A DNA stretch of 64,000 nt, taken from positions 1 through 64,000 of IMG/VR virus record IMGVR_UViG_3300028197_000003; one strand, 5' to 3'. The notes beneath the pieces were generated by a model. The model searched no databases. It saw nothing but the letters and a program-made list of their open reading frames with translations, and had not been told where the DNA came from. This document shows, piece after piece, positions 2,235 through 47,189 of the stretch. The stretch's first letter is position 1; each line of letters opens with the position of its first letter. The DNA comes from a virus. The position numbers and the translations under genes were made by a program.

Positions 2235-2264
2235 AGGCGGTCGGAACCCTCTCTCAAAGGAAGT

Positions 2265-3110: not shown

Positions 3111-3366
3111 AGTTATCCCTCATTTCTTCACGATGGTTCTTGAGGGATGTGAAGGCACCATCAATAAAACCACGACGATATTCCCAGGTATCACCCCCGG
3201 TTTTACCTCTAGAGGCATTGATGCACTTTGCAGCATCAGGATCATCTTCTCTAAGGTTATTGCATACTAAACCAGCAAGATCAAGATCTTTACCAGGTTT
3301 GCCGGTCCCTCCCCAATAGAGGACTCCCTCCATCCAAGTAGCACCACACTTTTCACATTTCTTCAT
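3097..3366 (-). CDS. Zinc-ribbon-type small protein (89 aa)
   Basis: It begins MKKCEKCGATW, a CxxC knuckle, and has two further cysteines (LVCNNL at about 34 and AKCINA at about 47) that could complete a four-Cys zinc site. The C-terminal half is charged. It has its own late-promoter motif (CTAAATA) at 3392-3398 on the minus strand, about 26 bases upstream of the ATG. Its 3' end overlaps the TTG start of the nucleophile-less SGNH gene, so the two are probably coupled. Its role, perhaps nucleic-acid or protein binding, is not determinable. Confidence 0.7.
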   Translation of the reverse strand: MKKCEKCGATWMEGVLYWGGTGKPGKDLDLAGLVCNNLREDDPDAAKCINASRGKTGGDTWEYRRGFIDGAFTSLKNHREEMRDNFGDL

Positions 3367-3391
3367 GGGAACCTCTGTGGATTATAAAAAA

Positions 3392-3398
3392 TATTTAG
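3392..3398 (-). promoter_or_regulatory. Late-promoter-like motif CTAAATA (minus strand)
   Basis: TATTTAG on the plus strand reads CTAAATA on the minus strand, placed 26 bases before the ATG of the zinc-ribbon gene and overlapping the stop codon of the gene at 3395. The spacing matches that seen at virion-gene promoters in the window. Confidence 0.55.
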
Positions 3399-4024
3399 AA
3401 GTTAGTATGTTCTATAATGTAGTCAGCAATGATTTTGTGTTGATCTGCATTTGGATGACCTTGACCAGGGGTCTGGATCATCTTCAGAATATCCTCGTAG
3501 ATATGATGCATTTTCGGGTCATCCATTAGGTTTCGCCAATACCCCATATCTTCTAGAGGATCACAATCATTGAATAGTACAATGTAGGGAACTTCATGTA
3601 CTTTAGCAAATTGTTCAAAAAGAAGTAAGTTTTTGTATAAATTCTCTGCCCCATGTGTCTTATTCCATACCCAACGGTAGTAGGAAGACATTGCTAGGGA
3701 ATGTGGTACTTTCTTCTTATTACCTGAACGGAAGTTGAAATTAGAATTATCTTGTCTAAACCTAAAAGGGCAGAAGAGGTGAGCACCATCTTCTGCATAG
3801 AACTCAATACGAGTGGGTACTGTAAGTTGTAAGACTACTGGTTGAACCCCATTAGTCTTTATATGATGTAGTACCCTATTTACGATATAGTCATTGGATG
3901 CCCCACATTGAGACAAATCAGTTGCTTCACACTTGTAGTGTTTTTCAACATGATGAATGAACCGTTCTGCTAGACGGTCCTTCAGTTCATCACCCCATGT
4001 ATACGAACAACCCGCAAATATCAT
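3395..4024 (-). CDS. SGNH/GDSL-hydrolase-like protein (paralogue 3, short form)
   Basis: At 209 residues this is the shortest paralogue. It starts MIFAGCSYTWGDEL, with the Ser nucleophile at residue 7, continues with CGASNDYIVNRV (block II), VVLQLTVPTR (block III position) and ends with GHPNADQHKIIADYI (block V His). Its ATG overlaps the stop of the upstream DUF3310-like gene as ATGA. The small size leaves little beyond the core flavodoxin-like fold. Predicted activity is acyl-ester hydrolysis or transfer; substrate unknown. Confidence 0.72.
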   Translation of the reverse strand: MIFAGCSYTWGDELKDRLAERFIHHVEKHYKCEATDLSQCGASNDYIVNRVLHHIKTNGVQPVVLQLTVPTRIEFYAEDGAHLFCPFRFRQDNSNFNFRSGNKKKVPHSLAMSSYYRWVWNKTHGAENLYKNLLLFEQFAKVHEVPYIVLFNDCDPLEDMGYWRNLMDDPKMHHIYEDILKMIQTPGQGHPNADQHKIIADYIIEHTNF

Positions 4025-4377
4025 GCCGAAAGATCAATCATTTTCTGTATGTAGGTCTTTGCTTTTTGTAGGTCATCTTGACGAGAGTTGCCAGATTTCC
4101 TACCTGCACGACTAACATACTTTACAACATTACCAGCAAAGAAGTCGAGTTCTTGATCTGCAATGAAATCCCAGACTTCAATTTGTCCAGTATTGTAATA
4201 ATCGGGATGGTAACCGAGTGCATCAGAAACCGAAAACGTAAGGTGATCTTGTCCTGGTCCCCCAATGCCTCCAACTTGGAATGTGAAAGGGACTTGCTGA
4301 GCTGCTTGTACAGCATCGTCAGGAACTTGGATATCTAATGCGTCACCGCCGTCGAATTGAATGGTGTCGTCTGCCAT
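4021..4377 (-). CDS. DUF3310-like protein
   Basis: The C-terminal 70 residues carry the pattern I associate with DUF3310 phage proteins: YYNTGQIEVWDFI, then LDFFAGNVVKYVSRAGRK, then DLQKAKTYIQKMI. The N-terminal 45 residues are acidic and glycine-rich. I chose the ATG at 4377 over the in-frame GTG at 4395; it leaves a 4-base gap to the preceding SGNH gene instead of a 14-base overlap. The 3' end overlaps the next gene as ATGA. DUF3310 proteins are widespread in tailed phages and their function is not settled to my knowledge. Its position inside an SGNH array is unexpected. Confidence 0.75.
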   Translation of the reverse strand: MADDTIQFDGGDALDIQVPDDAVQAAQQVPFTFQVGGIGGPGQDHLTFSVSDALGYHPDYYNTGQIEVWDFIADQELDFFAGNVVKYVSRAGRKSGNSRQDDLQKAKTYIQKMIDLSA

Positions 4378-4381
4378 AGAA

Positions 4382-5221
4382 CTAATGAGCGTCACGCCAA
4401 ATAGTATTGTAGGGTTTAGAATCTTTATTAGATTCCTTATATGAAGTATAGCACTTGGTTAGTATAGGGTCAAGGATCTCTGCAATTTGTTGATGTCCTT
4501 GTATAGTTGGGTGAAATGAATATGGATTGAGAACTCCTTTTTTCTTCAAGAAGTCAACACGATCACAATCTGCTTTCCAATCAGAGAAGTGATACTTATC
4601 ATCCATTGGATCCCATCCATTCTTGTATGCCAACTGACTTAGTAAGTCCTGATTGCAGTCATACGGCAATTCATCAAATGGTTTATATACACCACCAGTA
4701 TAATTATTGACATTCAGTGTGTCAAACCATATTTGAGGAACGTTGAGTAACTCAAAATACTTCTGCCAAAAATGGACTTCGTCTGCTAACGTCCGATTGG
4801 CAACACGTTCATAGAAGTGTTGGCGGAAATACTCCTTTGGTCCACACCAATCAGGTCCATGAATATGTTTACGTTTCTCTTGACCGGGTTGAAAGCATGA
4901 AAATGACTTTCCATGATTGAAAAATACTTCCATCCTGTAGATAGAAGTTACCCCCCAGATGACAATAGTGTCATTTAGATCATTCTGATGTAAATATTTT
5001 CTAAGTCTGCGAAACTGACATCCATTAGATGCTCCTCCAGAAGCAATATTGACGTTTTCTAATCCATGCTTTTTTGATAAGATAGTTCTAAACGCATTTT
5101 CCCAGTTGTCATCATCGTTATAACAGCGGTCTTGATACGTTTGTTTGTCCCAAGGATCTTCAGAATCATACCCGGAACCAACACCAGCAATCCAACTGCA
5201 TCCTAAAGTCAGTAATCTCAT
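4382..5221 (-). CDS. SGNH/GDSL-hydrolase-like protein (paralogue 4)
   Basis: A 279-residue protein beginning MRLLTLGCSWIAGVG with the nucleophile Ser at residue 9. Other blocks are GGASNGCQFRRL, IVIWGVTSIYR and SFHPTIQGHQQIAEIL near residue 240, as in the other paralogues. It follows the 5218 gene with an ATGA overlap, and the gene order suggests tandem duplication. A C-terminal extension (CYTSYKESNKDSKPYNTIW) is not seen in paralogue 5. Likely role: removal or transfer of an ester group on a glycan or related substrate. Specificity unknown. Confidence 0.72.
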   Translation of the reverse strand: MRLLTLGCSWIAGVGSGYDSEDPWDKQTYQDRCYNDDDNWENAFRTILSKKHGLENVNIASGGASNGCQFRRLRKYLHQNDLNDTIVIWGVTSIYRMEVFFNHGKSFSCFQPGQEKRKHIHGPDWCGPKEYFRQHFYERVANRTLADEVHFWQKYFELLNVPQIWFDTLNVNNYTGGVYKPFDELPYDCNQDLLSQLAYKNGWDPMDDKYHFSDWKADCDRVDFLKKKGVLNPYSFHPTIQGHQQIAEILDPILTKCYTSYKESNKDSKPYNTIWRDAH

Positions 5222-6003
5222 CTGAGTCGGGCAATCTCACCATCAATCTTATCTGCTAACCACTTATGGTACTCTCTAGTGGGATGTTGAGAGAAAGGAT
5301 TGACTTCTTTCTGCTGTTCTAGATATTGAATGCGAGTAGAATCTGAAGAAGAGAACTGCGAGACGTGATATCCATCTGCTTTTGGGGAGAATTGTAAGTC
5401 TGCACACTTCAAAGACATCAGATCCCGCCTAGGTTGATCGTCAAAGAGCATCCTATCGATTGGTTTGGGGTATTCATGATGGTTGAAAGTATCAAACCAA
5501 TAATTTTCAATACCTGCTGCTTCAAAAAAGCGGTTCCAGAAGCGGCATTTGTGTGCAAGTAGTTCTACTTTCTCCTTGTGATCATAGTGATGTGCTAAAT
5601 GTGCCTTGCTATCAAACTTAGCACGCGCCATTTGGGTGTCAGCACCCCATCCATTACCAAAAAGAACACTGATATATTTTCCTTTTTCCTTAGAAAACAC
5701 CTCAGTGCGGGTTGTAACAGTCAATCCCCAGAGCACAACTGTGTTTTTGTACTCACTTGGATCTAATTTACCAAAGTATCTCTCAGCAAACCGAAACTGA
5801 CGCTCATTGGAAGACCCCATTTGAGCGAAATTTTCGTTCGTGCACTCCCACTTATCTGCTAGATGCTTACGAAAGGCATATTTGTCTCCGAACTTTGCGT
5901 CATGATTGTCAGAACCTTGTTTATATTCAATCTTAGTCATCCCTGGAGTATAGTTGGTACCCACACCAAACATCCAAGAGCATCCAAAAGTAACAAGATT
6001 CAT
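5218..6003 (-). CDS. SGNH/GDSL-hydrolase-like protein (paralogue 5, first gene of minus operon)
   Basis: A 261-residue protein: MNLVTFGCSWMFGVG, MGSSNERQFRF, VVLWGLTVTTR and SQHPTREYHKWLADKI give the same block order as its relatives. It is clearly the nearest relative of the gene at 1470: both begin MNL(V/I)TFGCSWM and share a TYHVSQ- or YHVSQF-type segment near residue 200. It is the promoter-proximal gene of the minus-strand operon, with an ATAAATA motif at 6046-6052. No signal sequence is visible. Confidence 0.72.
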   Translation of the reverse strand: MNLVTFGCSWMFGVGTNYTPGMTKIEYKQGSDNHDAKFGDKYAFRKHLADKWECTNENFAQMGSSNERQFRFAERYFGKLDPSEYKNTVVLWGLTVTTRTEVFSKEKGKYISVLFGNGWGADTQMARAKFDSKAHLAHHYDHKEKVELLAHKCRFWNRFFEAAGIENYWFDTFNHHEYPKPIDRMLFDDQPRRDLMSLKCADLQFSPKADGYHVSQFSSSDSTRIQYLEQQKEVNPFSQHPTREYHKWLADKIDGEIARLR

Positions 6004-6106: not shown

Positions 6107-7078
6107 CTATTTTCCCCATGCTTCAGGTAAAGTTTTGAATACGTACTTCCAATCTTTATAAAATTTACCCATATACATTCCTGCAACGTTGATATCTTCT
6201 GGAGTAAGGTCTTCAACGTCGCTTATCCATTGATCTTTTAGGTATTCGTGGTGTGGTGCCTTACTTCCCATGTCTGGGACATAGACATTTTGATGAAGCT
6301 CTGTAATTGGGTACTCAAAAAACTCAGAAATAGCACCAAGTTGCTCTGTTTCTTGTTCAGGATCCCAAAAATCTTCCATCACCACTGGATAAACGTTATC
6401 TTTACCAAAAGCATCGCAATATTTTAGGTAACCAGCGATATAATCGCAATGATCTGGCACTCTATTCTGTTTTAGGTTGTGAAAAAACAATTTTCGGTGA
6501 TTTTGTCTCTTTGCAAAGGCTGCTGCGGTAAAATCTCCGCACCAAGAATCTACAACATTGACTTTTCGGGTCAATAAACTACCAACTTCCGAAAAATAGC
6601 GCCTAACAGGGTCACGAAACTCCATCAAGATCTTGACTTTGAAGTGCTCCTGCAATTTTGGAGCAATTTCAAACAAAAATGGTCGAGGAAGACTGAAATT
6701 TGTGTTGGAGAAGTCGCAAACTCCCTCATATTCGTCTTTGATGTTTTCCCAATGCCCTAAAAAGTATTCAATGTACGCATCGAGTGACTTTGGATTTGCC
6801 ATAAGCATTTCCAAAGACGTATTTTTGACAAATCGGTTACTTTTTGATAAATATTCGCCATACGGATGATCGTTTGGTCTTTTTTGATAACTAGCACCGT
6901 TCCACATTAGATCAAAGGCACGTTCATGCTCCTCATCTTTCTTACAAAGTGCTTTGAGGTACCAATTTTCTTTTTTATGCCCCATATGAACATATTGGTT
7001 GTCCATCGTCACTGTGTAGTGCATTGGACTTGTTGCTGACCAGCCAACGCCGGGATTTAGAAGCAGTGTTGGTTTCAT
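6107..7078 (-). CDS. Sulfotransferase-like protein (paralogue A)
   Basis: A 323-residue protein beginning MKPTLLLNPGVGWSATSPMHY. The GVGWSATSP segment is placed like the 5'-phosphosulfate-binding loop of PAPS-dependent sulfotransferases, and MEFRDPVRRYFSE near residue 160 resembles the 3'-phosphate-binding (R...S) motif. The C-terminus PEAWGK is shared with the divergent neighbour at 7266. The family would move sulfate from PAPS to a hydroxyl or amine acceptor. No PAPS synthesis gene is visible here, so PAPS would come from the host. The two genes diverge from a 32-bp gap. Acceptor unknown. Confidence 0.7.
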   Translation of the reverse strand: MKPTLLLNPGVGWSATSPMHYTVTMDNQYVHMGHKKENWYLKALCKKDEEHERAFDLMWNGASYQKRPNDHPYGEYLSKSNRFVKNTSLEMLMANPKSLDAYIEYFLGHWENIKDEYEGVCDFSNTNFSLPRPFLFEIAPKLQEHFKVKILMEFRDPVRRYFSEVGSLLTRKVNVVDSWCGDFTAAAFAKRQNHRKLFFHNLKQNRVPDHCDYIAGYLKYCDAFGKDNVYPVVMEDFWDPEQETEQLGAISEFFEYPITELHQNVYVPDMGSKAPHHEYLKDQWISDVEDLTPEDINVAGMYMGKFYKDWKYVFKTLPEAWGK

Positions 7079-7087
7079 GGTAAACTA

Positions 7088-7095
7088 TATAAATT
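7088..7095 (+). promoter_or_regulatory. Possible late promoter TATAAATT
   Basis: It matches 7 of 8 bases of the T4 late consensus TATAAATA and sits in the divergent gap, 16 bases before the ATG at 7111. The ribosome-binding site AGGAGG follows at 7097-7102, which leaves a very short leader. Confidence 0.4.
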
Positions 7096-7110
7096 CAGGA
7101 GGTGGGTCGT

Positions 7111-7269
7111 ATGCCGTATGATGTCTATCTAGACAAGAAAATCATCTTTGAATCTCTATCAAAAGAAAAAGCAGAAGGAATTCGAGATACCATGCAAAAT
7201 ATGATTATGGCAGGAATCAACACTACTTATAAAGTTGAAGATATCCGAATTGAACCTTGTAAAGGATGA
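7111..7269 (+). CDS. Tiny hypothetical protein (52 aa)
   Basis: ATG at 7111 follows a full AGGAGG ribosome-binding site at 7097-7102, one of the best in the window. The 52-residue product (begins MPYDVYLDKKIIF, ends EPCKG) has a beta-strand/helix/strand look and no known motif. Its TGA overlaps the next ATG as ATGA at 7266-7269. It is probably a leader gene of the plus-strand decoration operon, and its strong translation start could feed ribosomes into the downstream sulfotransferase-like gene. Confidence 0.75.
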   Translation: MPYDVYLDKKIIFESLSKEKAEGIRDTMQNMIMAGINTTYKVEDIRIEPCKG

Positions 7270-8156
7270 AACCTACATTATTTTTGAACGTAGGAACTGG
7301 ATGGTCAGGGACTACTCCATTATACTACACTTTGGGTTGGTATAACAACTATTGTCATGCTGGACACCGTAAAGAAAAAGGATATCTGTGGTTGCTTCAG
7401 TTACAGAAAGATAATAACACGTTTGAGCGAGTAAAGTTCTACAAAAAGTTTTTTGGACCATCCAGGCAGTCAATTACGACTCGGAAACCCAAAATCTTCA
7501 CTCATGAATCTAAGTACGTTGCTGGAAAATGGACTGAGGAAGAAATTGAGTATTTTTGGGGTCCCCCGTTTGAATTGAGAAAGTATGTTCAATATTATTT
7601 GAAGCATTGGGATAATATCAAAGATGATTATAAAGCAGTTGCTGATTTTAGCAACCCCAATGGATATTGCGATGCAGAGTACATAAAATATCTTGCATAT
7701 CATTTACAGAGTTATTTTGACGTAAAAATCCACATGATTTTCCGAGATCCCATTCGTAGACTGTGGTCTTGTCGTCAAGCTCAGAAAAGAGACAAACCTG
7801 TTGAGCATTTTCTAAAGTCTGGCATGGATTTTGACTATATCGATTTCTATAACAAATGGGCAGATGCATTTGGCAATGATAATACCCATGTAACAATCAT
7901 GGAAGACTTTTGGGCAGGAGACACTTCTTTGCTGTCAAGTTTTATTGGTATGGATATCAAGGAGACTCATGTCAATGCATATGTCCCAGATCTCGGTCCC
8001 TGTGCTCCACATATCCAATATTTGAACGATCAGTGGGAATCTGACGTAATGCATATGCCAGATCATGTCAAGGATAAAGCAAAGATTATGATGGAACCTT
8101 GCTATTCTCATTGGAAGCAATATTTTGGCAAATTGCCCGAATCTTGGGGAAAGTGA
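7266..8156 (+). CDS. Sulfotransferase-like protein (paralogue B)
   Basis: A 296-residue protein with the loop NVGTGWSGTTPLYY at residues 8-21 (PAPS 5'-phosphosulfate loop position), FRDPIRRLWS at about 159-168 (3'-phosphate motif) and a C-terminal KLPESWGK. It is most similar to the divergent gene at 6107: shared MKPTL start, GHRKE/GHKKE, NAYVPDLG/NVYVPDMG and DQWxSDV. It starts in an ATGA overlap with the tiny gene at 7111. Predicted to sulfate an unknown acceptor. Confidence 0.72.
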   Translation: MKPTLFLNVGTGWSGTTPLYYTLGWYNNYCHAGHRKEKGYLWLLQLQKDNNTFERVKFYKKFFGPSRQSITTRKPKIFTHESKYVAGKWTEEEIEYFWGPPFELRKYVQYYLKHWDNIKDDYKAVADFSNPNGYCDAEYIKYLAYHLQSYFDVKIHMIFRDPIRRLWSCRQAQKRDKPVEHFLKSGMDFDYIDFYNKWADAFGNDNTHVTIMEDFWAGDTSLLSSFIGMDIKETHVNAYVPDLGPCAPHIQYLNDQWESDVMHMPDHVKDKAKIMMEPCYSHWKQYFGKLPESWGK

Positions 8157-8186: not shown

Positions 8187-8324
8187 ATGCGCCGACTCTG
8201 GTATTGGATTGTAGGTGAATGGAATCTTCGTAAAATCCGCAAAATGGATCCGTTTATCTACGAAGCAGATCAGATGGATGAGATGGATGATCCTTTTGCT
8301 GATGATGGGGACGATAAAGGATGA
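8187..8324 (+). CDS. Tiny acidic-tailed protein (45 aa)
   Basis: ATG at 8187 opens a 45-residue frame whose TGA (8322-8324) overlaps the ATG of the carbamoyltransferase at 8321. The N-terminus is basic and Trp-rich (MRRLWYWIVGEWNLRKIRK); the C-terminus is strongly acidic (ending DDGDDKG). The bipolar layout could be a short amphipathic membrane or partner-binding helix with an acidic tail. I know of similar tiny proteins in cyanophages but no function. The overlap with a clear gene supports it. Confidence 0.65.
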   Translation: MRRLWYWIVGEWNLRKIRKMDPFIYEADQMDEMDDPFADDGDDKG

Positions 8325-9700
8325 TTGGATTTTCTGAGGGGTTTCACGACGCCGGACTGGCGGTTGTTCGTAATAAAAAGATTATCTTTGCTGCACATAG
8401 CGAAAGATACTCTAAGAAAAAGCATGACAAACGATTATGTGATGAACTTGCCTTTTATGGCGAATCACTCAACACAGGTGATGACGTAATCGCTTTTTAT
8501 GAGAAACAGTTCCCAAAACGTGTCAGGCAATTTTTCGCTGGACAAAACCACTGGCGTAAACGAAGACATCTAGCGTTACGACCAAATATCGGTTTTCCTC
8601 ATCATCAATCACATGCTGCAGCAGCATTCCAGACTTCATGCTTTGAAGAAGCAGCATGTGTTGTTGTAGATAGTATTGGTGAATGGGATTGTAGTTCTGT
8701 ATGGACTGCAAAGATGGTTGATGGTAATGCTGTCTATAAAAAACGTTGGTCCCGTAGATATCCAAAGTCTATAGGTCTTTGGTACTCTGCTTTGACTGGA
8801 TGGGCAGGTCTTCGTCCTTTAGACGAGGAATATATCTTTATGGGTATGGCAGCGTTTGGTAAACCCCATTATGTTGAAGAGGTAAGAAAACTCTTGTCTC
8901 AAAACAACCATCGTGGTTGCCATTTAGATATTGAGAGTAAGGAAGACGTTGCTGCTAGTGCACAGGTCGTTCTAGAGGAAGAGTTAGATAAGATTTTTGA
9001 TATTGCTCTTAGATACAGCGATAATGTCTGTTATGGGGGTGGTGTTGCATTGAATTGTGTTGCTAATACCAAACTACGTAAAAGGTGCAACTTATGGATC
9101 ATGCCCAACCCAGGTGACGCTGGTGGGGCACTTGGTGCTGCTCTATTGGCATCAGGTAAGAAAGTAGAGTTCACTCCTTACACTGGGTATAAGATCGACC
9201 GTAAAGTTGATCCTGAAGCAGTTGTAGATGTTCTTTTGAAGGATGGCATCTGTGGTATAGCAAATGGTAAGGCAGAGTATGGTCCTCGTGCTTTAGGTAA
9301 CCGTTCTTTGATTGCGGACCCCCGATCATTTGCAAATAAGGATCGAGTCAACGAAATCAAGAAGAGACAGAAGTTTAGACCATTTGCACCCGCAATTCTG
9401 GAGGAGCATTGTCAAGATTACTTTGATATGCCAGAGCACTCTCGATACATGTCTTATGTCTATCAATGTAAGCGTCCAGACGAGATTCCTGCCTGCGTGC
9501 ACGTCGATAACAGTGCAAGAGTACAAACGGTGCCCGAGACTAGTGAAAGCGTCTTCAGAGCGATTCTAGAGGCATGGTACAAGCGTACAGGTTGCCCTGT
9601 ACTTCTAAATACATCATTGAACATTCGTGGCATGCCAATGGTCAATGAATGGTCTGATGCACTTGATTTCTCTAACAAGTATAACGTTACTGTATTATGA
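8321..9700 (+). CDS. Carbamoyltransferase, NodU/TobZ/CmcH type
   Basis: A 459-residue protein with recognisable carbamoyltransferase signatures: MIGFSEGFHDAGLAVV at the N-terminus, HHQSH (94-98, the metal-binding histidines of the Kae1-like domain), a GGVALNCVAN motif at about 240, EYGPRALGNRSL at about 320, RQKFRPFAPA, and NTSLNIRGMPMV in the C-terminal YrdC-like part. The family makes carbamoyl-adenylate from carbamoyl phosphate and ATP and carbamoylates hydroxyl groups of sugars or antibiotics. It is shorter than the usual 540-570 residues. It is coupled by ATGA overlaps to the tiny gene upstream and the SGNH gene downstream. Sugar or surface-glycan carbamoylation is inferred. Confidence 0.88.
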   Translation: MIGFSEGFHDAGLAVVRNKKIIFAAHSERYSKKKHDKRLCDELAFYGESLNTGDDVIAFYEKQFPKRVRQFFAGQNHWRKRRHLALRPNIGFPHHQSHAAAAFQTSCFEEAACVVVDSIGEWDCSSVWTAKMVDGNAVYKKRWSRRYPKSIGLWYSALTGWAGLRPLDEEYIFMGMAAFGKPHYVEEVRKLLSQNNHRGCHLDIESKEDVAASAQVVLEEELDKIFDIALRYSDNVCYGGGVALNCVANTKLRKRCNLWIMPNPGDAGGALGAALLASGKKVEFTPYTGYKIDRKVDPEAVVDVLLKDGICGIANGKAEYGPRALGNRSLIADPRSFANKDRVNEIKKRQKFRPFAPAILEEHCQDYFDMPEHSRYMSYVYQCKRPDEIPACVHVDNSARVQTVPETSESVFRAILEAWYKRTGCPVLLNTSLNIRGMPMVNEWSDALDFSNKYNVTVL

Positions 9701-10539
9701 AAATACTATTTTCCGGCGATTCCTTCTGCGAAGGCACTGAACTAGACGGTCGAGAACATAGTATGGAACAAAGGGATACATTACGATATTCAAACGTTGT
9801 AAAAGAATATTTGAACGATCTTTTTGGCATTCAAGTCACATTTGACAATATCGGATATTCTGGTTACTCCAATGATGAGATTACTCGCGATACAGTTGAG
9901 TATTGTGAGAAAACCGAAGTAGATGTTGCTGTAGTTCAGTTCTCACACCCTCAGAGGTGGGCATACTACAGTGAGGTGAAAGAACGCTGGTTTAGTATGG
10001 ATCAGTATGAACATTTTTATGGTTGCCACCCAGAACACAAAGTAATTGAAATTTGTGAGTGGTGGGACACTAATGTCAAGTCTAGAACTCAATATATTGA
10101 CAATTTTTTCAAAAACGTATTTTTACTTGAACAATACTTCAAAGCAAAAAACATTCCTTATGTTTTTCTTCAATTAGAGGAATGGACTAATAATGAAATT
10201 GCAAGTTGCGATACTAAGTGGAAAGAGTTGGTAGACACCAAGCGTGTCAAAGGTGTGACACCATCACAAGAAGAATTTGGTAATAGGGAGTATTTTGTCG
10301 GAGAAACAGATGCTATTTGTCCTACATGGTGGATGAAGGACGAAGAACTAATGAGGGAGTACAGAACTCTTGATCAGAGAGATGAAAAAACAGAATTTGC
10401 CGTTGGTAATGATGAAGACACTCATCGGTGGTTAGGTGGATGGCATCCAGGTAAAAATGGTCATATTGCCATTGCAAAGTGGATTATTCAGGAAATGACT
10501 GATAATGAAAAACTCCACCATCTGTTTCCTGGAATATGA
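9697..10539 (+). CDS. SGNH/GDSL-hydrolase-like protein (paralogue 6)
   Basis: A 280-residue protein with a more classical elbow, MKILFSGDSFCEG (Ser at residue 9), GYSGYSNDEI as block II, VVQFSHPQRW at the block III position and GWHPGKNGHIAIAKWI near the end. It is translationally coupled at both ends: ATGA with the carbamoyltransferase and with the radical SAM gene. Its GDSF rather than GCSW suggests a divergent branch of the minus-strand family or an independent acquisition. It may act on the same glycan as the carbamoyltransferase. Confidence 0.75.
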   Translation: MKILFSGDSFCEGTELDGREHSMEQRDTLRYSNVVKEYLNDLFGIQVTFDNIGYSGYSNDEITRDTVEYCEKTEVDVAVVQFSHPQRWAYYSEVKERWFSMDQYEHFYGCHPEHKVIEICEWWDTNVKSRTQYIDNFFKNVFLLEQYFKAKNIPYVFLQLEEWTNNEIASCDTKWKELVDTKRVKGVTPSQEEFGNREYFVGETDAICPTWWMKDEELMREYRTLDQRDEKTEFAVGNDEDTHRWLGGWHPGKNGHIAIAKWIIQEMTDNEKLHHLFPGI

Positions 10540-11789
10540 ATAGAAAGGAGGTAATTGATAATCAAAAAAACAATAGTCTTTGTGCATATCCATTTTTCTC
10601 TGTTAGAAATGGACAATCACATGGATATGCTCCATGTTGCTGGGCACACCGCCAACAACTAGTTGGTCCTGCTACTGACACTGTTTTTGAATATTTTGAT
10701 GGTCCAGAGGCAGTTGAGTTACGCCGTGGAATGTTGAATGGCGAAATAACCAATCAGTGTAAAGGAATTTGTCATTTGTGCCATGAGCGAGAAAAAACGA
10801 GTGGTACGTCTGCTCGTTTGATGATGAAAATCGATGAAAACATGCTTGCTCTTTATAATGATGATGGAACCTATAATCCTGATCACAATCCAGATATTCG
10901 TGAAGTTCTAAATCTAGAACTGAATTTTTATGGTAGTTACTGTAATCTGGAATGTTATGGGTGTCATCCTGCAGATTCAACAACTAGAACTGCTAGATTA
11001 GAAAAAATCTCAGACCTACGAGTTTCTGAGGGAAGAGACGACTGGTTTGCCAAAAATGTTGATGATGTCTACTGGTTACCTACAGATCTCAGAAAAGTTG
11101 ACCCAGATCAATTTCGTAGACTTGTAGAAGACATTATTGATAATGCTGACCGCATTGGTGCCATGGGATTCTGTGGTGGAGAACCAATGGCGATGAAGGC
11201 ACATTTTCAAGTTCTAGATGCTTTGATTCTTGCAGGAAAAGCATCACACATGAAATTGAACTATGTCTCAAATATGACTATGTGGGACATGAAAGTAATG
11301 GAAAAATACCTGAAAGAGTTTAGATACATCCATGTTCAATGGAGTTGTGATGGATTACGTGAAAGAAACCATTATTTGAGATATCCAACAGATTGGGATA
11401 AAACATGGGCAAATGTTCAAGCACTGCGAAAATATTGCAAAGAATCAGGAAAAGGTTCTATGCAGACAACATATACACCTTCTCTTCTAAGTGTGTACAA
11501 AATCAAAGAAGTATTTGAGTTTTTTGAAGAGCAGAATCTAAAATCACGTCCATTTGAAATCTATAACCGATTAGAGAACCCACATTTTCTAAGAGTCAAT
11601 AATCTGCCAGAACCACTCAAAGAGCAGATATTAGATGAAGTAAAAAGTGTTAGTGAGTCAGTTGCTTTAGATATGATGAGACCATGCGAACCTGGGTCTT
11701 GGGAGATTGCAAAAGAGTATTTTGATGATCTGGATAAAACCCGAGGAACCAATTGGAGACTGACTTTTCCCGAACTTGCGGGGTACTAA
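10536..11789 (+). CDS. Radical SAM protein with twitch-type extra Cys clusters
   Basis: A 417-residue protein. C136-NLE-C140-YG-C143 is the CX3CX2C cluster that binds the 4Fe-4S/SAM centre, and GFCGGEPMA (about 211-219) is the SAM-contacting GGEP motif. Additional cysteines are at 16, 34, 35, 75, 79 and 82 (YAPCCW; CKGICHLC), placed N-terminally as in twitch-like radical SAM proteins. These enzymes start chemistry with a 5'-deoxyadenosyl radical; the substrate (peptide, sugar or nucleotide) cannot be told. It overlaps the SGNH gene by ATGA and ends the coupled block. A late-promoter motif overlaps its stop codon. Confidence 0.85.
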   Translation: MNRKEVIDNQKNNSLCAYPFFSVRNGQSHGYAPCCWAHRQQLVGPATDTVFEYFDGPEAVELRRGMLNGEITNQCKGICHLCHEREKTSGTSARLMMKIDENMLALYNDDGTYNPDHNPDIREVLNLELNFYGSYCNLECYGCHPADSTTRTARLEKISDLRVSEGRDDWFAKNVDDVYWLPTDLRKVDPDQFRRLVEDIIDNADRIGAMGFCGGEPMAMKAHFQVLDALILAGKASHMKLNYVSNMTMWDMKVMEKYLKEFRYIHVQWSCDGLRERNHYLRYPTDWDKTWANVQALRKYCKESGKGSMQTTYTPSLLSVYKIKEVFEFFEEQNLKSRPFEIYNRLENPHFLRVNNLPEPLKEQILDEVKSVSESVALDMMRPCEPGSWEIAKEYFDDLDKTRGTNWRLTFPELAGY

Positions 11790-40941: not shown

Positions 40942-41474
40942 TGGAGTCATATTTTGGCGGCATTTGGAAGGATGACTATGTTGGTCAACTGAAGCACTCA
41001 GGAGACGCTGTAGTCGATTACATCAATAAGTTATCTCCATCTAGTGTATTGGATGTAGGATGCGGTTACAACCGCCTCAAGGACCGTGTACCGGGGTTAG
41101 TTGGTATTGATCCATATAACAAAGAGGCACACTTACATATGTCTCTGGAGGAATACTATGAGTATGAATTTCCACCTGCTGATGTTGTTCTCTGTCTAGG
41201 ATCAATCAACTTCGGAACTGAAGAAGATATTGATAAACAGATTAGTATGTTAGATAAATTGTTTCTAAAAGATATTATTTTTAGGGTCAATCCAGGTATT
41301 GCTCATGATTGGGCAAATACTAATATTGATCAGATACAATGGTATGATTGGAACATTGAAAAGATAAATAAAATTACTGAAGAATACCAATACAATTTGA
41401 TATCACTGAAAGAAGAAACTACTTCTCAAGGACATCTAAGGTATTTTTTTCATTATGCTAAATACTCACGTTGA
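40941..41474 (+). CDS. Class I SAM-dependent methyltransferase-like protein
   Basis: Residues 36-46 (VLDVGCGYNRL) form the glycine-rich SAM-binding loop, followed by GLVGIDPYN (acidic post-motif) and PPADVVLCLGSINFG near residue 80-93 (motif IV). At 177 residues it is near the minimum for a Rossmann-type methyltransferase. The target (DNA, protein, small molecule or glycan) cannot be told; no DPPY or NPPY motif typical of adenine methylases is present. It is coupled by TAATG to the preceding gene and by proximity to the diiron gene. It lies at the left edge of the accessory island. Confidence 0.75.
   Translation: MESYFGGIWKDDYVGQLKHSGDAVVDYINKLSPSSVLDVGCGYNRLKDRVPGLVGIDPYNKEAHLHMSLEEYYEYEFPPADVVLCLGSINFGTEEDIDKQISMLDKLFLKDIIFRVNPGIAHDWANTNIDQIQWYDWNIEKINKITEEYQYNLISLKEETTSQGHLRYFFHYAKYSR
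41458..41464 (+). promoter_or_regulatory. Late-promoter-like motif CTAAATA
   Basis: GCTAAATACTC overlaps the 3' end of the methyltransferase gene, 24 bases before the ATG at 41488. GAAAGG (41473-41478) is the ribosome-binding site of the diiron gene. Confidence 0.65.
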
Positions 41475-41487
41475 AAGGAAATCCAAA

Positions 41488-42162
41488 ATGCTTTCTGGAA
41501 CCGATTTCGTAAAGAAAATCAAGGAAGGTAATAGGGAGCTGTTTGAGGCTTCCCGTAGTAACGTCCGTCGTTTCTTCGCTTCTGCCCCTAGCGAGGAGTA
41601 CCTCGTCGAGCACTTCCGTGGCCGCATGGTCAACGAAGCACAAAACATGTATGCGATTGCTGGTCAAGTAGCATCTGCCGACCCTAGCACCGACGTTCGC
41701 GACCTGGAGCTTCTTAGCAAGCAGGCATTGGACGAAGCAAAGCACTTCCGCATGGTCAAGGAAGTCATCGAGCACATCACTGGCGAAGAACTAGACGTTG
41801 CTGCTGCTTTCGCTGCTGAAGCAGGTAAGCCTCAAGCAAAGGGTGCTTCCCTGCTTGAGAAGTACGAAGCTGCTCAAGATCCTGCTGCCCTCGCTGCCTA
41901 TCAGCTCGTTGCTGAAGGTCGTGCACAAGCAGTCTGGTCTGAAATGGCCGAGTGTGTTGAAGATTCGTTTATCTCCACCCGCTACGCCTCCATTGCTAAG
42001 GATGAAGGTTTCCACAGCAACCTCGGCGGACGCTCACTGAGCCGTCTGGTTGAAGGTAGTGTGGAACTTCAAGATCGCGTTCTTGCTCTTGTCGAGCGTA
42101 TGCGTTCTGATCTTCTGGAGATCTCCCGCCAGAACACGGCTACACCTCTTGCCGTTGTTTGA
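41488..42162 (+). CDS. Diiron carboxylate protein of the ferritin/RNR-like type
   Basis: A 224-residue all-helical protein with two complete metal-ligand sets. Set one is E50 followed 32 residues later by D82-E83-x-x-H86. Set two is E143 followed 29 residues later by D172-E173-x-x-H176. This is the E-X(28-37)-DEXXH pattern of RNR-like diiron oxygenases and ferritins. Such proteins activate O2 or store or detoxify iron. ATG 41488 is preferred over 41455 because a ribosome-binding site and a late promoter precede it. Alanine-rich sequence and a more GC-rich codon choice than neighbours suggest strong late expression. It overlaps the convergent P-loop gene by 23 bases. Substrate unknown. Confidence 0.75.
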   Translation: MLSGTDFVKKIKEGNRELFEASRSNVRRFFASAPSEEYLVEHFRGRMVNEAQNMYAIAGQVASADPSTDVRDLELLSKQALDEAKHFRMVKEVIEHITGEELDVAAAFAAEAGKPQAKGASLLEKYEAAQDPAALAAYQLVAEGRAQAVWSEMAECVEDSFISTRYASIAKDEGFHSNLGGRSLSRLVEGSVELQDRVLALVERMRSDLLEISRQNTATPLAVV

Positions 42163-42775
42163 AGGTCTGACGACCTTCTCTAATAGTCTCGTCTAACCAA
42201 TGGTCTTTGACGGGACTTACATATTTTCCGTTGGCATCGCCGGTTATAAACTGGTCGATGCCATTGGTCGTTACAGGGAACTTTAGAATCTCCCCACAGT
42301 ATTTGATATAGTCTTCCTTCCACAAGAAAAAAGATTCGTGAGATAGGAAATGTGTTTCAATATATGGATCCTCTAAGAGGGATTTATAGTAACCTTTGGC
42401 AATCGGTAGGGTTACTTCTCCACCAACTCTTTCTTGTTGAAGTGCATTTATATTTTGATCTCTTGTAATAATTGCCACTACAGGTGTGTAACCAAGATGC
42501 ATTGCTTGATGACAAACTGCTGAAATCTTAGGTACCTGTCTGACACCATCATAGAAGAAAGGAACACTTACATTTGCTAGAAAAAAATCTCCCTCAGGAA
42601 ACTCTAACAACTCAGGATATACCCAATACTTGGCAAATGGTTCCTCATCAGATGGAACCCAGTAATTATCTTTGAGAGAATCCCACCCTACAACTTCTGG
42701 GTGCAAACTAAATATTCTTGCAAATAGGTGATTGCCTGATCCTTGTGGTCCGGTTGTGATAAGGAGTCTTTTCAT
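42140..42775 (-). CDS. P-loop protein, sulfotransferase-like (paralogue D1)
   Basis: A 211-residue protein beginning MKRLLITTGPQGSGNHLFARIFSLHPEVVGW, a P-loop (GPQGSGNH) that is more kinase- or sulfotransferase-like than ATPase-like. Near-identical architecture is found at 47190-47870 (GPQGSGNHLW, FSLHDDVYGWKSLLNNYW), so the two are paralogues. VAIITRDQNINALQQERV near residue 108 resembles the second motif of its twin (KIVVIGRDQNILRNQQQR). Its ATG overlaps the ATG of the divergent gene at 42774 within TCATGA. Its stop lies within the end of the diiron gene. It could be a sulfotransferase or a nucleotide-dependent transferase. Confidence 0.62.
   Translation of the reverse strand: MKRLLITTGPQGSGNHLFARIFSLHPEVVGWDSLKDNYWVPSDEEPFAKYWVYPELLEFPEGDFFLANVSVPFFYDGVRQVPKISAVCHQAMHLGYTPVVAIITRDQNINALQQERVGGEVTLPIAKGYYKSLLEDPYIETHFLSHESFFLWKEDYIKYCGEILKFPVTTNGIDQFITGDANGKYVSPVKDHWLDETIREGRQTFKQRQEV
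42161..42178. other. Small stem-loop at the convergent gene junction
   Basis: GAAGGTC-TGAC-GACCTTC is a perfect 7-bp stem that begins within the stop codon of the diiron gene. No T-run flanks it on either strand, so it may stabilise mRNA 3' ends rather than terminate. Confidence 0.4.
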
Positions 42776-43913
42776 GAGTAAACCGAAGTTTATATTTTTC
42801 TTAGGAGCATCATTTTCAGCAACAACTCCGCTGTATAAAATGCTTCGTAATCACATTACGAGTGGATTTGCTAAAGAACATCATTTGGCAGAAGTAGCAG
42901 AGATAGCGCAACAAATAAGATCTGGAATTTATACACCGACCGATAGAGATAATTTTCCCTTTTTATCAAGTTCAAAAAAATCTTCTACCTCATCATGGGT
43001 CGGTGGGGAAGAGTATAATGAAAAGTTATTGAGATGTAAAAAGAAGATTGATTGCGCCCAAAATTTTGGTACTAGTTCTGGTGAGATTATAACAGATTAT
43101 CCGGATTTTAGTAATTGGTCAATACAAAAATATGTTGATTACTACAAAAAATTGTGGGACAATAGAGGGGATGGTAGAGATGTATTAGTTGATTGGTCTA
43201 ATAGTAATGGTCGTTTAGATTATAATTTTATAAAAAATTTACTGGAAGCATTGAAGCAAGAGTTTGATGTCAGTGCTCTGATTATATGTAGAGACCCTGT
43301 GAGAAGGGCATGGTCTTGGTTGAACTATGCATGGAATGATTATTCAAAAGTTTATATGAAAGATCGTTACACTAATATTGACTCTGCCGCCAAAGCAGAA
43401 TTTGCAAAAATAAAACCATATCATCCACTCATTGAAAGTGTAGAAAAATCGTGTCCTGTGCACGTTTTGGTTATGGAAAAAGTATGGGAGGGTAATTCTT
43501 TTCTATCTAAAGAAGAGTCTCAAATAATTACTCAGTTGATTGGGAAACCTGACTTTGCCCCAAACCTATACTGTCCCGATAGAGGAAACAAAGCAATCCG
43601 TTATAAACATCAAAAAGACCAGTGGTGTTCTGATCATTTCAATATGTCAGATAAACAATACTATGAGTACAAAAATATTATGATTGATCATTATGATGGA
43701 TGGAAAGGAGATCTTCCTGAGGGGTGGGGATCTCCAATGGATTATGAAACAAACTGTTCCTTACCCATAGATGGCATAGAAGAACAGTACATCAAACCTG
43801 GAACTTATCGTAAGAGTGATGGAAAATTATATGTAGACTTTGATGGTTATGATGAATTATATAACGTTGAATATGTTGACCCATATTTTAGTGATAAATT
43901 TTCCAACCCATAA
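42774..43913 (+). CDS. Sulfotransferase-like protein (paralogue C1)
   Basis: ATG 42774 (MSKPKFIFFLGASFSATTPLYK) has AAGGAG at 42761-42766; the earlier in-frame start has none. Residues 10-20 (GASFSATTPLY) match the sulfotransferase 5' loop; CRDPVRRAWSW near 180 is the 3'-phosphate motif. The C-terminal extension WGSPMDYETNCSLPI plus about 60 residues is shared with the genes at 44992 and 46059 and is absent from paralogues A and B. It is therefore a separate sub-branch. Predicted PAPS-dependent; acceptor unknown. Confidence 0.72.
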   Translation: MSKPKFIFFLGASFSATTPLYKMLRNHITSGFAKEHHLAEVAEIAQQIRSGIYTPTDRDNFPFLSSSKKSSTSSWVGGEEYNEKLLRCKKKIDCAQNFGTSSGEIITDYPDFSNWSIQKYVDYYKKLWDNRGDGRDVLVDWSNSNGRLDYNFIKNLLEALKQEFDVSALIICRDPVRRAWSWLNYAWNDYSKVYMKDRYTNIDSAAKAEFAKIKPYHPLIESVEKSCPVHVLVMEKVWEGNSFLSKEESQIITQLIGKPDFAPNLYCPDRGNKAIRYKHQKDQWCSDHFNMSDKQYYEYKNIMIDHYDGWKGDLPEGWGSPMDYETNCSLPIDGIEEQYIKPGTYRKSDGKLYVDFDGYDELYNVEYVDPYFSDKFSNP

Positions 43914-43957: not shown

Positions 43958-44914
43958 TTACTCTTCTGCATCGGTACCGTAGGCACGAATACGATCAGCA
44001 ACTCCCGCAGGAAGAGAAATCGTATCATACAATCCAGCAGTAGCTTGCTTGAATGCAGTACGCTCATCAGTAGTCATTTTGTTGACGGTAATTCCTTCAT
44101 TCGTGCACTTGACCTCAAGGTCAAACATCTCATCAACAGACCATTCTTGTTCCGCATCTGCGGTAACAATTGCTGCGTTTGCAATTTTGCCACGAAGTCC
44201 AGAATCTTTATCCAAAGACTTCCAAAAATCTTTCCGACAAACAATAGCTGCAACATTCATAGAATGTCGTGTATCATTGAGAGTCTTCATGACATCATCG
44301 CCTTCATTGGCGAAGAACTGAGTGTAGTTAGCATCTGCACCAGCAACGGTGCCATCTGTGACGGCTTGTTTGATCTGCTCTACTTCAAGAACAACAGGAG
44401 TAGCACCAATTGCTTCAAAAGTTTTTTTAGCAATTTCGTTGTCGTCGCATCGAATGGAAACCCCTAACAGATCATCGGTTGTATCGATTTCTTTAGTAGC
44501 AGGAATCATATTGTATCCACCAGCAAAAGTATATCCCAGACCCCTAACTACAGTATCTTCACGTCCCCATAGTCCTTTCAAAAGCTCAATTCCAACTTGA
44601 CCCGCTAAGGCGTTACTTGCCTCAACATAACTACTAAACAAATAAGGCATATCAAGAACTCTCAAATCTGAGTTGAGTTCAGCCAACTTGGACGTATATA
44701 TCTGACACATATCCAACTTACCCTCTCTAATGAGAGTAATAAAATCATTCCTGGTAACTGCTACACCTTCATTGTACTTCGTAGCAAACTCTGATAGTGT
44801 AAGAATTTCAACTTCAAATTCCCCAGGAGCAAGGATCTCAATTTCAGTAGCAAACTTCTCAGCAGTACGACGGAAAAGTTCAATAGGTTCATGTACCCAA
44901 CGTACTTTTTTCAT
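43958..44914 (-). CDS. TRAP transporter solute-binding protein, DctP-like, without signal peptide
   Basis: A 318-residue protein with DctP/TAXI-type patterns: KKVRWVHEPIELFRRTAEKFATEIE (the mature start of TRAP binding proteins), LDMPYLFSSYVEASNAL, GLGYTFAGGYNMIPAT, the arginine-containing GVSIRCDDNEIAKKTFEAIGATPVVL and VTDGTVAGADANY. These proteins bind carboxylates or similar solutes and feed a TRAP permease, usually in the periplasm. Here no signal peptide is present, and no DctQ or DctM permease genes are in the window. An active late-type promoter on the minus strand and a terminator frame it. It may bind a metabolite in the cytoplasm. Confidence 0.85.
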   Translation of the reverse strand: MKKVRWVHEPIELFRRTAEKFATEIEILAPGEFEVEILTLSEFATKYNEGVAVTRNDFITLIREGKLDMCQIYTSKLAELNSDLRVLDMPYLFSSYVEASNALAGQVGIELLKGLWGREDTVVRGLGYTFAGGYNMIPATKEIDTTDDLLGVSIRCDDNEIAKKTFEAIGATPVVLEVEQIKQAVTDGTVAGADANYTQFFANEGDDVMKTLNDTRHSMNVAAIVCRKDFWKSLDKDSGLRGKIANAAIVTADAEQEWSVDEMFDLEVKCTNEGITVNKMTTDERTAFKQATAGLYDTISLPAGVADRIRAYGTDAEE

Positions 44915-44991: not shown

Positions 44992-46038
44992 ATGAAACCT
45001 AAATTTATTTTGTTTCTTGGAGTAGGTTGGTCAGCAACAACTCCACTGTTTGCATCTATCAAAGAACATTTACTCTACGGCATTGAGAAGGAATGGTTTT
45101 ATCCCCAGATGTTGTTTGAAAGGAATTTTTACAAGTTCACAAATGATCATTTATGGAGAAAATCTTTAGATGAACTCAAGGTAAGAATAAGAAAATTTAG
45201 AGAGGGTGAGATACAGTTTCATCATGTGTCGAAGCACGATGTGTCAGAAAAAGCATTGAGTATCATAGAGCATCATGATCCTACTATCGAGAGATATATT
45301 GATTTTTACAAATGTCTCTGGGAAGAAGGGGTAAGTTACGATAAGAAGGCACTTGCAGATTTTTCAAATACAAATAGTGAATGTTTCTTTGTTGATAAAG
45401 GAATTCGATGGTATAGAAACTTTGTATCAGAATTGGATAAACATTTTGATGTTATTCAAGTTGCAATTTTTAGAGATCCAGTTAGGAGGTTTTTCTCAAA
45501 CGAGGTTTGGTTATATGACAACGCCGAGCATCTAGACATTGACACGGGTGGTCAAACTTTAGATCAGTGGTTTGAACATCGTATAGAACATCAGATTCCT
45601 TATGCCAAACTTATCAAGACTGCCATGTCTTGTGGTAAGACTGAATTTTTTGTTATGGAAGACGTATGGGAATCTGATACTGAAACCCAAATTGCTCGAC
45701 TACAAAAACTTTTTGCTGTCGATAGAGTAGAATTATATGACAATGCTTACTGTCCTGATAGAGGATCTAAAGCAATTAGATATAGTAACCTAATAGATCA
45801 ATGGACTAGTGATTCATTTGATATGCCAGATGATTTATATTATAAACTCAAAAAAATGATGAGTTTTCAGTACGAAGATTGGATAAAAATGTATGGCAAA
45901 TTGCCTGAAACTTGGGGCAGTCCTGCAGACTATAAGAAGAATCAGAGTTTACCGATAGGGAGACTACAGCACAAAGAGAACTTTGTTTATCCAGAGTTTT
46001 ATGAAGAGATTGATGGTCAAAATTATTGTCATAACTAG
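44992..46038 (+). CDS. Sulfotransferase-like protein (paralogue C2)
   Basis: A 348-residue protein: MKPKFILFLGVGWSATTPLFAS carries the 5' loop and IFRDPVRRFFSN near residue 160 the 3'-phosphate motif. It shares MEDVWESDT, NAYCPDRGSKAIRY, DQW(T)SDSFDMPDDLYYKLKKM and the SLPIGR extension with the adjacent gene at 46059. The start context GTGAAAGGATGAAACCT matches the 7266 gene. Tandem with 46059; the two are recent duplicates by eye. Acceptor unknown. Confidence 0.72.
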   Translation: MKPKFILFLGVGWSATTPLFASIKEHLLYGIEKEWFYPQMLFERNFYKFTNDHLWRKSLDELKVRIRKFREGEIQFHHVSKHDVSEKALSIIEHHDPTIERYIDFYKCLWEEGVSYDKKALADFSNTNSECFFVDKGIRWYRNFVSELDKHFDVIQVAIFRDPVRRFFSNEVWLYDNAEHLDIDTGGQTLDQWFEHRIEHQIPYAKLIKTAMSCGKTEFFVMEDVWESDTETQIARLQKLFAVDRVELYDNAYCPDRGSKAIRYSNLIDQWTSDSFDMPDDLYYKLKKMMSFQYEDWIKMYGKLPETWGSPADYKKNQSLPIGRLQHKENFVYPEFYEEIDGQNYCHN

Positions 46039-46058
46039 TAAAGTGATTGTATAAAAAA

Positions 46059-47189
46059 ATGAAACCTAAATTTATACTATTTGTTGGTTATGGATGGGCA
46101 GCAACAACTCCATTATTCAATTCCCTAAAAGAACATCTACTTTTTGGTACTCAAAAAGAGATGCATTATTTTGAATTGATCTATAAAAAACAATATTACA
46201 AAGATCCTAAAAACTGGGGGGAAGGAGCCAAAGACCGTAGGGGATGGGAGAAAACTTTTGAATTACATTTAGCACGTGTCAAACAGACCAGGTATGGTGA
46301 AGATAATTATGATCAAAATATTTTTGTGCCAGATAAAGCATTTGATATTCTTGAAGATCCTAATACTTGTATAGAAAACTATATCAATTTTTATAAATCC
46401 ATTTGGGAAAAACATGCAGATGAGGGCAAGATACTTGCAGATTGGTCAAACTCAAATATTCTTCCGATAAACGATAAAACAGTAGGACTGCCTTTGTACA
46501 AAGAGTTTATACAAAGACTACAAGAACATTTTGATGTTACTCAAGTAGGAATTTTTAGAGATCCAGTTAGACGACTATTTTCAGAACATGTTTGGCATTG
46601 GGACAATGCAGATCTCCTTAGAATTGATAAAGGTTTACATCATACCGTAGAAACTTACTTAGAATTATATGCAAAAAAAGTTTTACCTTACAGTGATATT
46701 ATAGATGTCACTAGAAAATATGGTAAAACTGAATTTTTTGTTATGGAAGATATATGGGAGAACGATACTAAAAATCAACTTAGTCGATTAGAAAATCTTA
46801 TTGGTAAAGATATAAATTTATATGATAATGCTTACTCTCCTGATAGAGGATCTAAAGCAATTAGATATACTCTTTTGATTGATCAATGGAATAGTGATTC
46901 ATTTGATATGCCAGATGATTTATATTATAAACTAAAAAAAATACTTCAGTATCAATATGATTATTGGCCTAAAGTATTTGGTTGTCTTCCTGAGCAGTGG
47001 GGAACCCCTATAGACTACAAGAAAAATCAAAGTTTACCTATAGGAAGAATTGAACACGAAGGTAATTTTGTTCCTGAAGAAAATCGTGAACTAATTGATG
47101 GTGAATATTATTGGAAAGATTTCGATAATACATTTCTGCTTGATGGAATGGATGATTTTTTTACTAAATTTGAGGTTGTAAGTAAGTGA
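46059..47189 (+). CDS. Sulfotransferase-like protein (paralogue C3)
   Basis: ATG 46059 is chosen over the in-frame TTG 46047 because all paralogues begin MKP. The 376-residue product has GYGWAATTPLF (5' loop), IFRDPVRRLFSE (3' motif), MEDIWENDT, YSPDRGSKAIRY and WGTPIDYKKNQSLPIGR, like C2. Its stop codon abuts the stop of the convergent P-loop gene (TGATCA at 47187-47192), so no terminator separates them. It is AT-richer than the fibre gene. Predicted PAPS-dependent sulfotransferase. Confidence 0.72.
   Translation: MKPKFILFVGYGWAATTPLFNSLKEHLLFGTQKEMHYFELIYKKQYYKDPKNWGEGAKDRRGWEKTFELHLARVKQTRYGEDNYDQNIFVPDKAFDILEDPNTCIENYINFYKSIWEKHADEGKILADWSNSNILPINDKTVGLPLYKEFIQRLQEHFDVTQVGIFRDPVRRLFSEHVWHWDNADLLRIDKGLHHTVETYLELYAKKVLPYSDIIDVTRKYGKTEFFVMEDIWENDTKNQLSRLENLIGKDINLYDNAYSPDRGSKAIRYTLLIDQWNSDSFDMPDDLYYKLKKILQYQYDYWPKVFGCLPEQWGTPIDYKKNQSLPIGRIEHEGNFVPEENRELIDGEYYWKDFDNTFLLDGMDDFFTKFEVVSK

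Follow-up and report, generated by a model that had tools for sequence, protein, structure and literature searches.

What kind of protein is encoded at positions 41488-42162 of this viral DNA, and would it use a pair of metal ions to activate oxygen? The 64,000 nucleotides of the window open a virus record of 192,351 bases (G000). Further along, this record carries genes for two photosynthetic reaction-centre proteins (D1 and D2 by eye), for plastocyanin, for a 2Fe-2S ferredoxin and for transaldolase. Its T4-like capsid protein is closest, among the matches listed, to that of Marine virus AG-345-D19 (86.5%); the other 14 of the best 15 of 2,501 capsid matches, at 72.7-75.7%, belong to phages of Synechococcus and Prochlorococcus and, in one case, to another marine virus. 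The photosystem gene set and the T4-like capsid matches together indicate that G000 is a cyanomyovirus. It also encodes its own ribonucleotide reductase, with both subunits (R2, PF00268, 2.9e-54), and ARAGORN found no tRNA genes in the 192-kb record. The features discussed below are collected in Table 1.

Table 1. Position of the putative diiron gene, its upstream signals and its neighbours in the window.
Feature	Position	Strand	Motifs or basis
Methyltransferase-like protein (cluster 3), 177 aa	40941..41474	+	DVGCGxN and IDP motifs
CTAAATA late-promoter-like motif	41458..41464	+	read by eye; enrichment in the phage
SD-like AAAGGAA before the ATG	41474..41480	+	read by eye
Putative ferritin-like diiron protein, 224 aa	41488..42162	+	E50, DE82-83xxH86, E143, DE172-173xxH176
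Predicted sulfotransferase-fold protein a (cluster 0), 211 aa	42140..42775	-	model; 3' ends of this gene and the diiron gene overlap
Predicted sulfotransferase-fold protein b (cluster 0 paralogue), 226 aa	47190..47870	-	35% identical to a; fold taken from a

The gene starts with an ATG at 41488 and comprises 225 codons including the stop. An initial annotation had described two EX(28-37)DEXXH motifs in its product, at E50/82-86 and E143/172-176, and the residues are as described, with spacings of E-x31-DEXXH and E-x28-DEXXH. A scan of IMG/VR with the window protein yielded 139 relatives, and 80 loci were retained; when viral contigs were scanned again, now by alignment, 200 relatives emerged with the same 80 loci, the most distant 120 lying outside the sample. 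For the motif tally, the query and 78 sequences starting within the first 15 residues (from the kept loci and the window's own copy, L081) were reduced to 66 distinct sequences, with three relatives that start later left out. E50, D82, E83, H86, E143, E173 and H176 are invariant in all 66 (query included), the six proposed metal ligands among them, while the D172 position is D in 65 and E in one. At position 147 the window protein has Q where 98% of the family have E, while E143 is E throughout. In a 28-row alignment (A1) of the window protein and 27 hand-chosen relatives, 123 of the 224 columns are invariant and mean column identity is 87%. Since the family is highly conserved overall, motif invariance alone is weak evidence, and a shuffle test was therefore added. 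Two E-x(28,37)-DEXXH motifs were found in 5 of 200,000 shuffles of the protein; among real ORFs the two-motif pattern occurs in one of 212 from the phage (the diiron gene) and in none of the 885 other ORFs of the loci. Judged from its sequence, the product very likely binds metal.

The structure was predicted by AlphaFold2 with A1 as input, yielding a confident helical bundle (pLDDT 90.5, pTM 0.86); family diversity is low (Neff 1.3), so that the model rests on little covariation. Long predicted helices span residues 4-31, 36-63, 70-98, 132-156, 160-188 and 192-216. The proposed ligands are distributed over the inner four, with E50 on 36-63, E83 and H86 on 70-98, E143 on 132-156, and E173 and H176 on 160-188. 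E50, E83, E143 and E173 are each located 13 residues from the hairpin end of their own helix. The model thus places the two ligand sets in matching register on four long helices, as required of a ferritin-like diiron-carboxylate protein. This register agrees with a convergence of all six ligands on one two-metal site, which we infer from the model.

Comparison of the model with the PDB using Foldseek gave no match at E<=0.001, the best rows above that value being mostly heme-oxygenase-like and TenA proteins, with UndA, ADO and CADD also present. A fold search of BFVD similarly returned nothing at E<=0.001, with a phage protein resembling rubrerythrin in second place (E 0.045). VIA-align gave Z scores of 17.5 for TenA, 17.4 for CADD, 17.1 for PqqC, 16.9 for the N-oxygenase HrmI and 16.8 for MiaE, followed by 16.5 for a protein with ADO activity, 14.9 for Prochlorococcus ADO and 14.7 for the PaaAC subcomplex. 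Unmatched helical models typically reach Z 14, and the predicted bundle is therefore above background at 17.5, yet the top rows tie and pick no family. TenA and PqqC are not known as diiron enzymes. The heme-oxygenase-like diiron oxidases CADD, HrmI, UndA and BesC are all among the fold rows, and presumably have a ligand order different from that of the phage protein. The similarity to CADD, a self-sacrificing pABA synthase, raises the question of whether the phage protein is a single-turnover or radical-type diiron protein, resembling either CADD or an R2-like radical carrier. Such a role would explain a large amount of protein being made, in line with the high predicted abundance described below, and CADD is among the best structural matches (Z 17.4 and 17.3 over 201 and 202 residues). 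We nevertheless consider it quite improbable, as the phage has its own R2, no residue is tied to a radical, and the CADD ligand order, as we understand it, differs from two ExxH pairs.

A search for the closest homologues, proposed in the initial annotation, gave weak matches to PaaA_PaaC, AurF, RNR-R2, Ferritin_2 and MiaE, with no curated family cut-off reached. For the window protein, PF05138 (PaaA/PaaC) scored 17.4 bits against a cut-off of 28.5, and PF06175 (MiaE, cut-off 27 bits) is not listed at E<=10. The AurF/CmlI/AzoC N-oxygenases (PF11583) have two EX28-37DEXXH motifs in common with the phage protein, which nevertheless remains below their cut-off (13.4 versus 29.6 bits). Two DEXXH-type motifs are the pattern given for AurF-type N-oxygenases in passages of PMC6783550. 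When 28 family members were compared with Pfam, all matches were weak: Ferritin_2 was found for 17 of the 28, RNR-R2 for 12 (best E 0.0082) and MiaE for one (E 0.02).

That Ferritin_2 matched more members than any other family is in accordance with a ferritin-like ferroxidase or peroxidase, an abundant protein for late Fe(II) uptake or peroxide removal as photosystems and Fe-S proteins break down, or one packaged in the virion, with the neighbouring genes forming a separate island. A plain ferritin carries ExxH without the Asp, and its subunit differs from a bundle with extra long first and last helices; the phage protein, in contrast, has two DEXXH motifs with Asp, and its first and last predicted helices are of this long, additional kind. 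Precedents do exist, with phages carrying Dps and Mn-catalase of the ferritin-like superfamily reported in passages of PMC8008677, and freshwater phages with ferritin in passages of PMC6802176. Overall, we regard this explanation, the strongest competitor of the reading we prefer, as somewhat unlikely.

Local and global profile comparisons were made with four known diiron families, using profiles that are thin following a strict frame filter (2 of 4 sequences for AurF, 2 of 4 for PaaA/C, 10 of 19 for ADO and 16-17 of 25 for MiaE). The local comparison with MiaE aligned both ExxH pairs over 100 columns (P 0.002). In this alignment it is position 147, and not E143, that meets a Glu, making the identity of the fourth ligand uncertain. 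The MiaE tRNA hydroxylase (PF06175) is similar in fold (2itb_A, Z 16.8, 3.4 A, 187 aligned residues), but only 10% identical and without a Glu opposite E143. AurF (P 0.24, motif 1 only, with a 2-sequence profile) and PaaA/C (P 0.8) gave no significant alignment, and the global mode gave no sensible alignment with any of the four families (P 0.41-0.68). Eight control comparisons with two neighbour families gave P 0.079-0.95, and the known diiron families compared with each other gave P 0.00025-0.79. By this test, the phage family is approximately as distant from each known family as these are from one another. The invariant and rare motif, the predicted bundle and the MiaE profile alignment together lend good support to the diiron-carboxylate reading, at the level of sequence and model.

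An ADO-like deformylating oxygenase acting on host fatty aldehydes is suggested by the local comparison with ADO, in which motif 2 aligns (KDEGFHSN with KDEYSHLN). The bundle fold is also similar: 8fhc_B, level with the top rows, reaches Z 16.5 (16% identity over 189 residues, 2.9 A), another protein with ADO activity reaches 15.9, and Prochlorococcus ADO aligns at 2.7 A over 170 residues. ADO is moreover found in 19 of 59 cyanobacterial genomes, including Synechococcus WH7803. However, the profile match covers just 36 columns (P 0.035), and PF11266 (Ald_deCOase) has no match to the window protein at E<=10 or to family members at E<=1, leaving this assignment very improbable.

The protein is neither PTOX nor the phage's own RNR R2. 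PTOX is a diiron protein and RNR R2 a DEXXH-type diiron bundle, but both are separate genes: G011 carries an AOX match and the diiron gene at different places, and the R2 of G000 is likewise encoded elsewhere. PF01786 (PTOX/AOX) has no match anywhere in G000 and is not listed for the window protein at E<=10 or for family members at E<=1. PTOX is already known as a cyanophage gene from passages of PMC3037559. We therefore place the protein in no named enzyme family but in a family of its own, new within the ferritin-like diiron superfamily; with it, the cyanophage repertoire would include a diiron protein beyond PTOX and RNR.

The gene was originally described as preceded by a late promoter and a good ribosome-binding site. 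The first of these is borne out by CTAAATA, which precedes 21 of 172 ORFs at a distance of 60 nt or less, the diiron gene included, where approximately 1.0 would be expected. Among relatives, all 75 loci examined (49 and 26 of the two locus types, from 80 fetched) have TAAATA no more than 70 nt upstream, although these loci are related by descent; its base rate in G000 is 30 of 172 ORFs within 60 nt upstream. Passages of PMC3037559 name TATAAAT as the T4 late promoter that was searched for there. As for the ribosome-binding site, the window contains an SD-like sequence, but a simple pattern finds one in only 30 of 75 relatives.

Codon use was assessed against the sheath, tube, portal and capsid genes. 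With a CAI of 0.792 the diiron gene ranks second of 172 ORFs (at least 300 nt), above the capsid gene itself (0.748), confirming the capsid-like codon use noted initially; the phage petF (ferredoxin) ranks third. The promoter-like motif and codon use support the suggestion that the protein is expressed late and is likely to be abundant. Codon use of the neighbours is ordinary (ranks of 113 for the methyltransferase-like gene, 137 for sulfotransferase-fold b and 158 for a, all of 172), so that they are hardly produced in amounts equal to the diiron protein. This difference suggests a demand for the diiron protein that exceeds the demand for its neighbours, as expected of a slow enzyme, of a protein that turns over only once or of a structural component.

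Sequence conservation of the diiron protein is close to that of the capsid protein, with identities of the window protein to its relatives of 89% versus 90% for the capsid in G009, 88% versus 90% in G011 and 73% versus 77% in G005; in G008 the values are 91% and 85%, the latter for a capsid fragment of 217 aa. Compared locus by locus, the diiron protein exceeds the head-tail adaptor in conservation in 31 of 35 cases and the head closure protein in 27 of 27; the same holds against the methyltransferase-like protein in 61 of 63 loci and against the sulfotransferase-fold proteins in 71 of 77, with the window's L081 included in these last two counts. Median dN/dS is 0.077 (60 of 74 pairs with dS<3), a rough value given a high median dS of 1.72. 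Virion-like codon use together with near-capsid conservation suggests an abundant, perhaps structural protein, a point in favour of the ferroxidase or peroxidase.

Which genes accompany the diiron gene was tallied over the 80 loci, counting presence anywhere in the locus (L007 was missed by the ORF caller and L081 is in neither subset). Where at least 3.5 kb of downstream sequence is available, one sulfotransferase-fold gene is present in 65 of 65 loci and two in 62 of 65; where at least 2.5 kb is available upstream, the methyltransferase-like gene is present in 47 of 49. Two gene orders were observed. In the window type, a cluster-1 gene, a small gene, the methyltransferase-like gene and the diiron gene are followed by two opposite-strand sulfotransferase-fold genes and then by another cluster-1 gene and the neck genes. 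The second type has these strands exchanged, with the sulfotransferase-fold genes oriented like the diiron gene and the methyltransferase-like gene against it. Cluster 1 is repeat-rich and fibre-like by eye; the long copy is without a PHROG, and the short copy at 47973 matches the virion structural family phrog_25416 (1.6e-5). Fourteen loci also contain radical-SAM/SPASM genes (cluster 9). The linkage with sulfotransferase-fold genes persists in both gene orders, which speaks for a shared pathway, and it stays unexplained if the diiron protein is a ferroxidase or peroxidase.

The fold of protein a was predicted with a pLDDT of 86.0. Foldseek returned 29 matches at E<=0.001, 28 of which are sulfotransferase-fold entries, with TM-scores of about 0.4-0.5. 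The top twelve VIA-align rows are sulfotransferases (Z 11.6-10.2), with P-loop kinases from 10.1 down, the best sulfotransferase exceeding the kinases by just 1.5-2. Teg12, Teg14 and PAP-bound retinol dehydratase are taken as sulfotransferases in the Foldseek count, as are the Teg12 rows in the VIA-align count. The model thus points to a PAPS-sulfotransferase fold for protein a. No Pfam sulfotransferase model is among the seven families listed for 22 cluster-0 members. For the methyltransferase-like family, several methyltransferase models were matched weakly, in 7 of 18 members (best E 0.0024).

Further P-loop proteins, which start with a GxGWSATTPL-type sequence and look like sulfotransferases by eye, are encoded at 6107-8156, 42732-43913 and 44992-47189; scans gave no Pfam match for three of this type and no PHROG match for two. 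Cluster 18 (e.g. L050:6685-6939) occurs in 8 loci, directly behind the diiron gene in those read. A small membrane-like protein near the photosystem genes (L085:8323-8541, G000 132323-132544) is without a PHROG and resembles cluster 18 by eye.

Our best reading is that the protein is an O2-activating diiron oxygenase, abundant and late, within a sulfation/methylation module, a tentative assignment to which we give a little less than an even chance. Built on the conserved motif, the predicted bundle, the late-promoter-like motif, the virion-like codon use and the linkage, the scheme we infer runs as follows. The product of 41488-42162 would be made in quantity from its own late promoter, with E50/E83/H86 and E143/E173/H176 holding two irons inside the helical bundle. 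A viral or host ferredoxin would reduce the diiron centre, and a peroxo or high-valent species would then hydroxylate or N-oxygenate a substrate. The two sulfotransferase-fold proteins would add sulfate to the oxidised product, and the neighbouring methyltransferase-like protein might methylate it, the decorated target being virion adhesins, the host envelope or a small molecule. Ferredoxin is a plausible electron donor, given the third rank of the phage petF in codon adaptation, but a ferredoxin gene was found in only 4 of 9 phage records and not in the 248-kb G005; in G006 and G007 it is located approximately 6 and 10 kb from the diiron gene. A more specific version is a virus-only pathway at whose core a late oxygenase, produced at near-capsid level, hydroxylates adhesins, glycans or envelope lipids, with the sulfotransferases and methyltransferase finishing a sulfated decoration for adsorption or the exclusion of rivals; in this detailed form we consider it unlikely. 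Of the roles first proposed (O2 activation, fatty-acid or amine oxidation, iron storage), the weak family matches single out none, while the underlying diiron site is supported. The steady sulfotransferase-fold linkage opens a possible viral oxidation-sulfation chemistry to direct testing.

The diiron family was found here only in environmental virus contigs. Photosystem genes are also present in three of the eight other records with the diiron gene (G005, G006 and G009), so that at least those three are cyanophages; the records may be fragments. In a collection of 50,697 phage records, which may omit records near the window, the diiron protein had no match at E<=0.01, a 73%-identity relative used as query had none at E<=10, and neither sulfotransferase-fold protein a nor the methyltransferase-like protein was matched. 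This absence of the module might mark a host range not yet in culture. The diiron protein matched no PHROGs and no NCBIfam family. A search of GTDB contigs with two conserved octapeptides, which detects close relatives only, gave 64 pattern hits and no relatives. Among 386 cyanobacterial genomes there were seven matches at E<=0.1 and no credible relative; two, an ATPase with a coiled coil and a methyltransferase, were judged by eye to be unrelated, and the other five are, like the methyltransferase match, confined to positions 176-217 or 176-214. Phycocyanin matches (E 0.13-0.75) were too weak and were dropped. Among the matches listed from the phage and cyanophage literature on diiron, ferritin-like, ADO, sulfotransferase and PTOX genes, we found no published report of this protein, and it is not reported in the relevant passages of PMC6802176, PMC9611531, PMC12038007, PMC8008677, PMC6783550 and PMC3037559.

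Several other genes in the record were observed in passing. At 1470-6003 on the minus strand, several proteins start with F-G-C-S-W or similar and are SGNH-hydrolase-like by eye; the one scanned had no Pfam match. The region 8321-11789 encodes a carbamoyltransferase (PF16861, PF02543), with a radical-SAM protein (PF04055) one gene further. Two TRAP-transporter solute-binding (DctP) proteins are encoded, at 43958-44914 on the minus strand and at G000 90429-91538 (L083:6429-7535), matching PF03480 at 2.5e-32 and 4.2e-16. Inspection by eye gives no clear sign of a signal peptide in the copy at 43958-44914, which matches phrog_31178, a PHROG with no assigned function.
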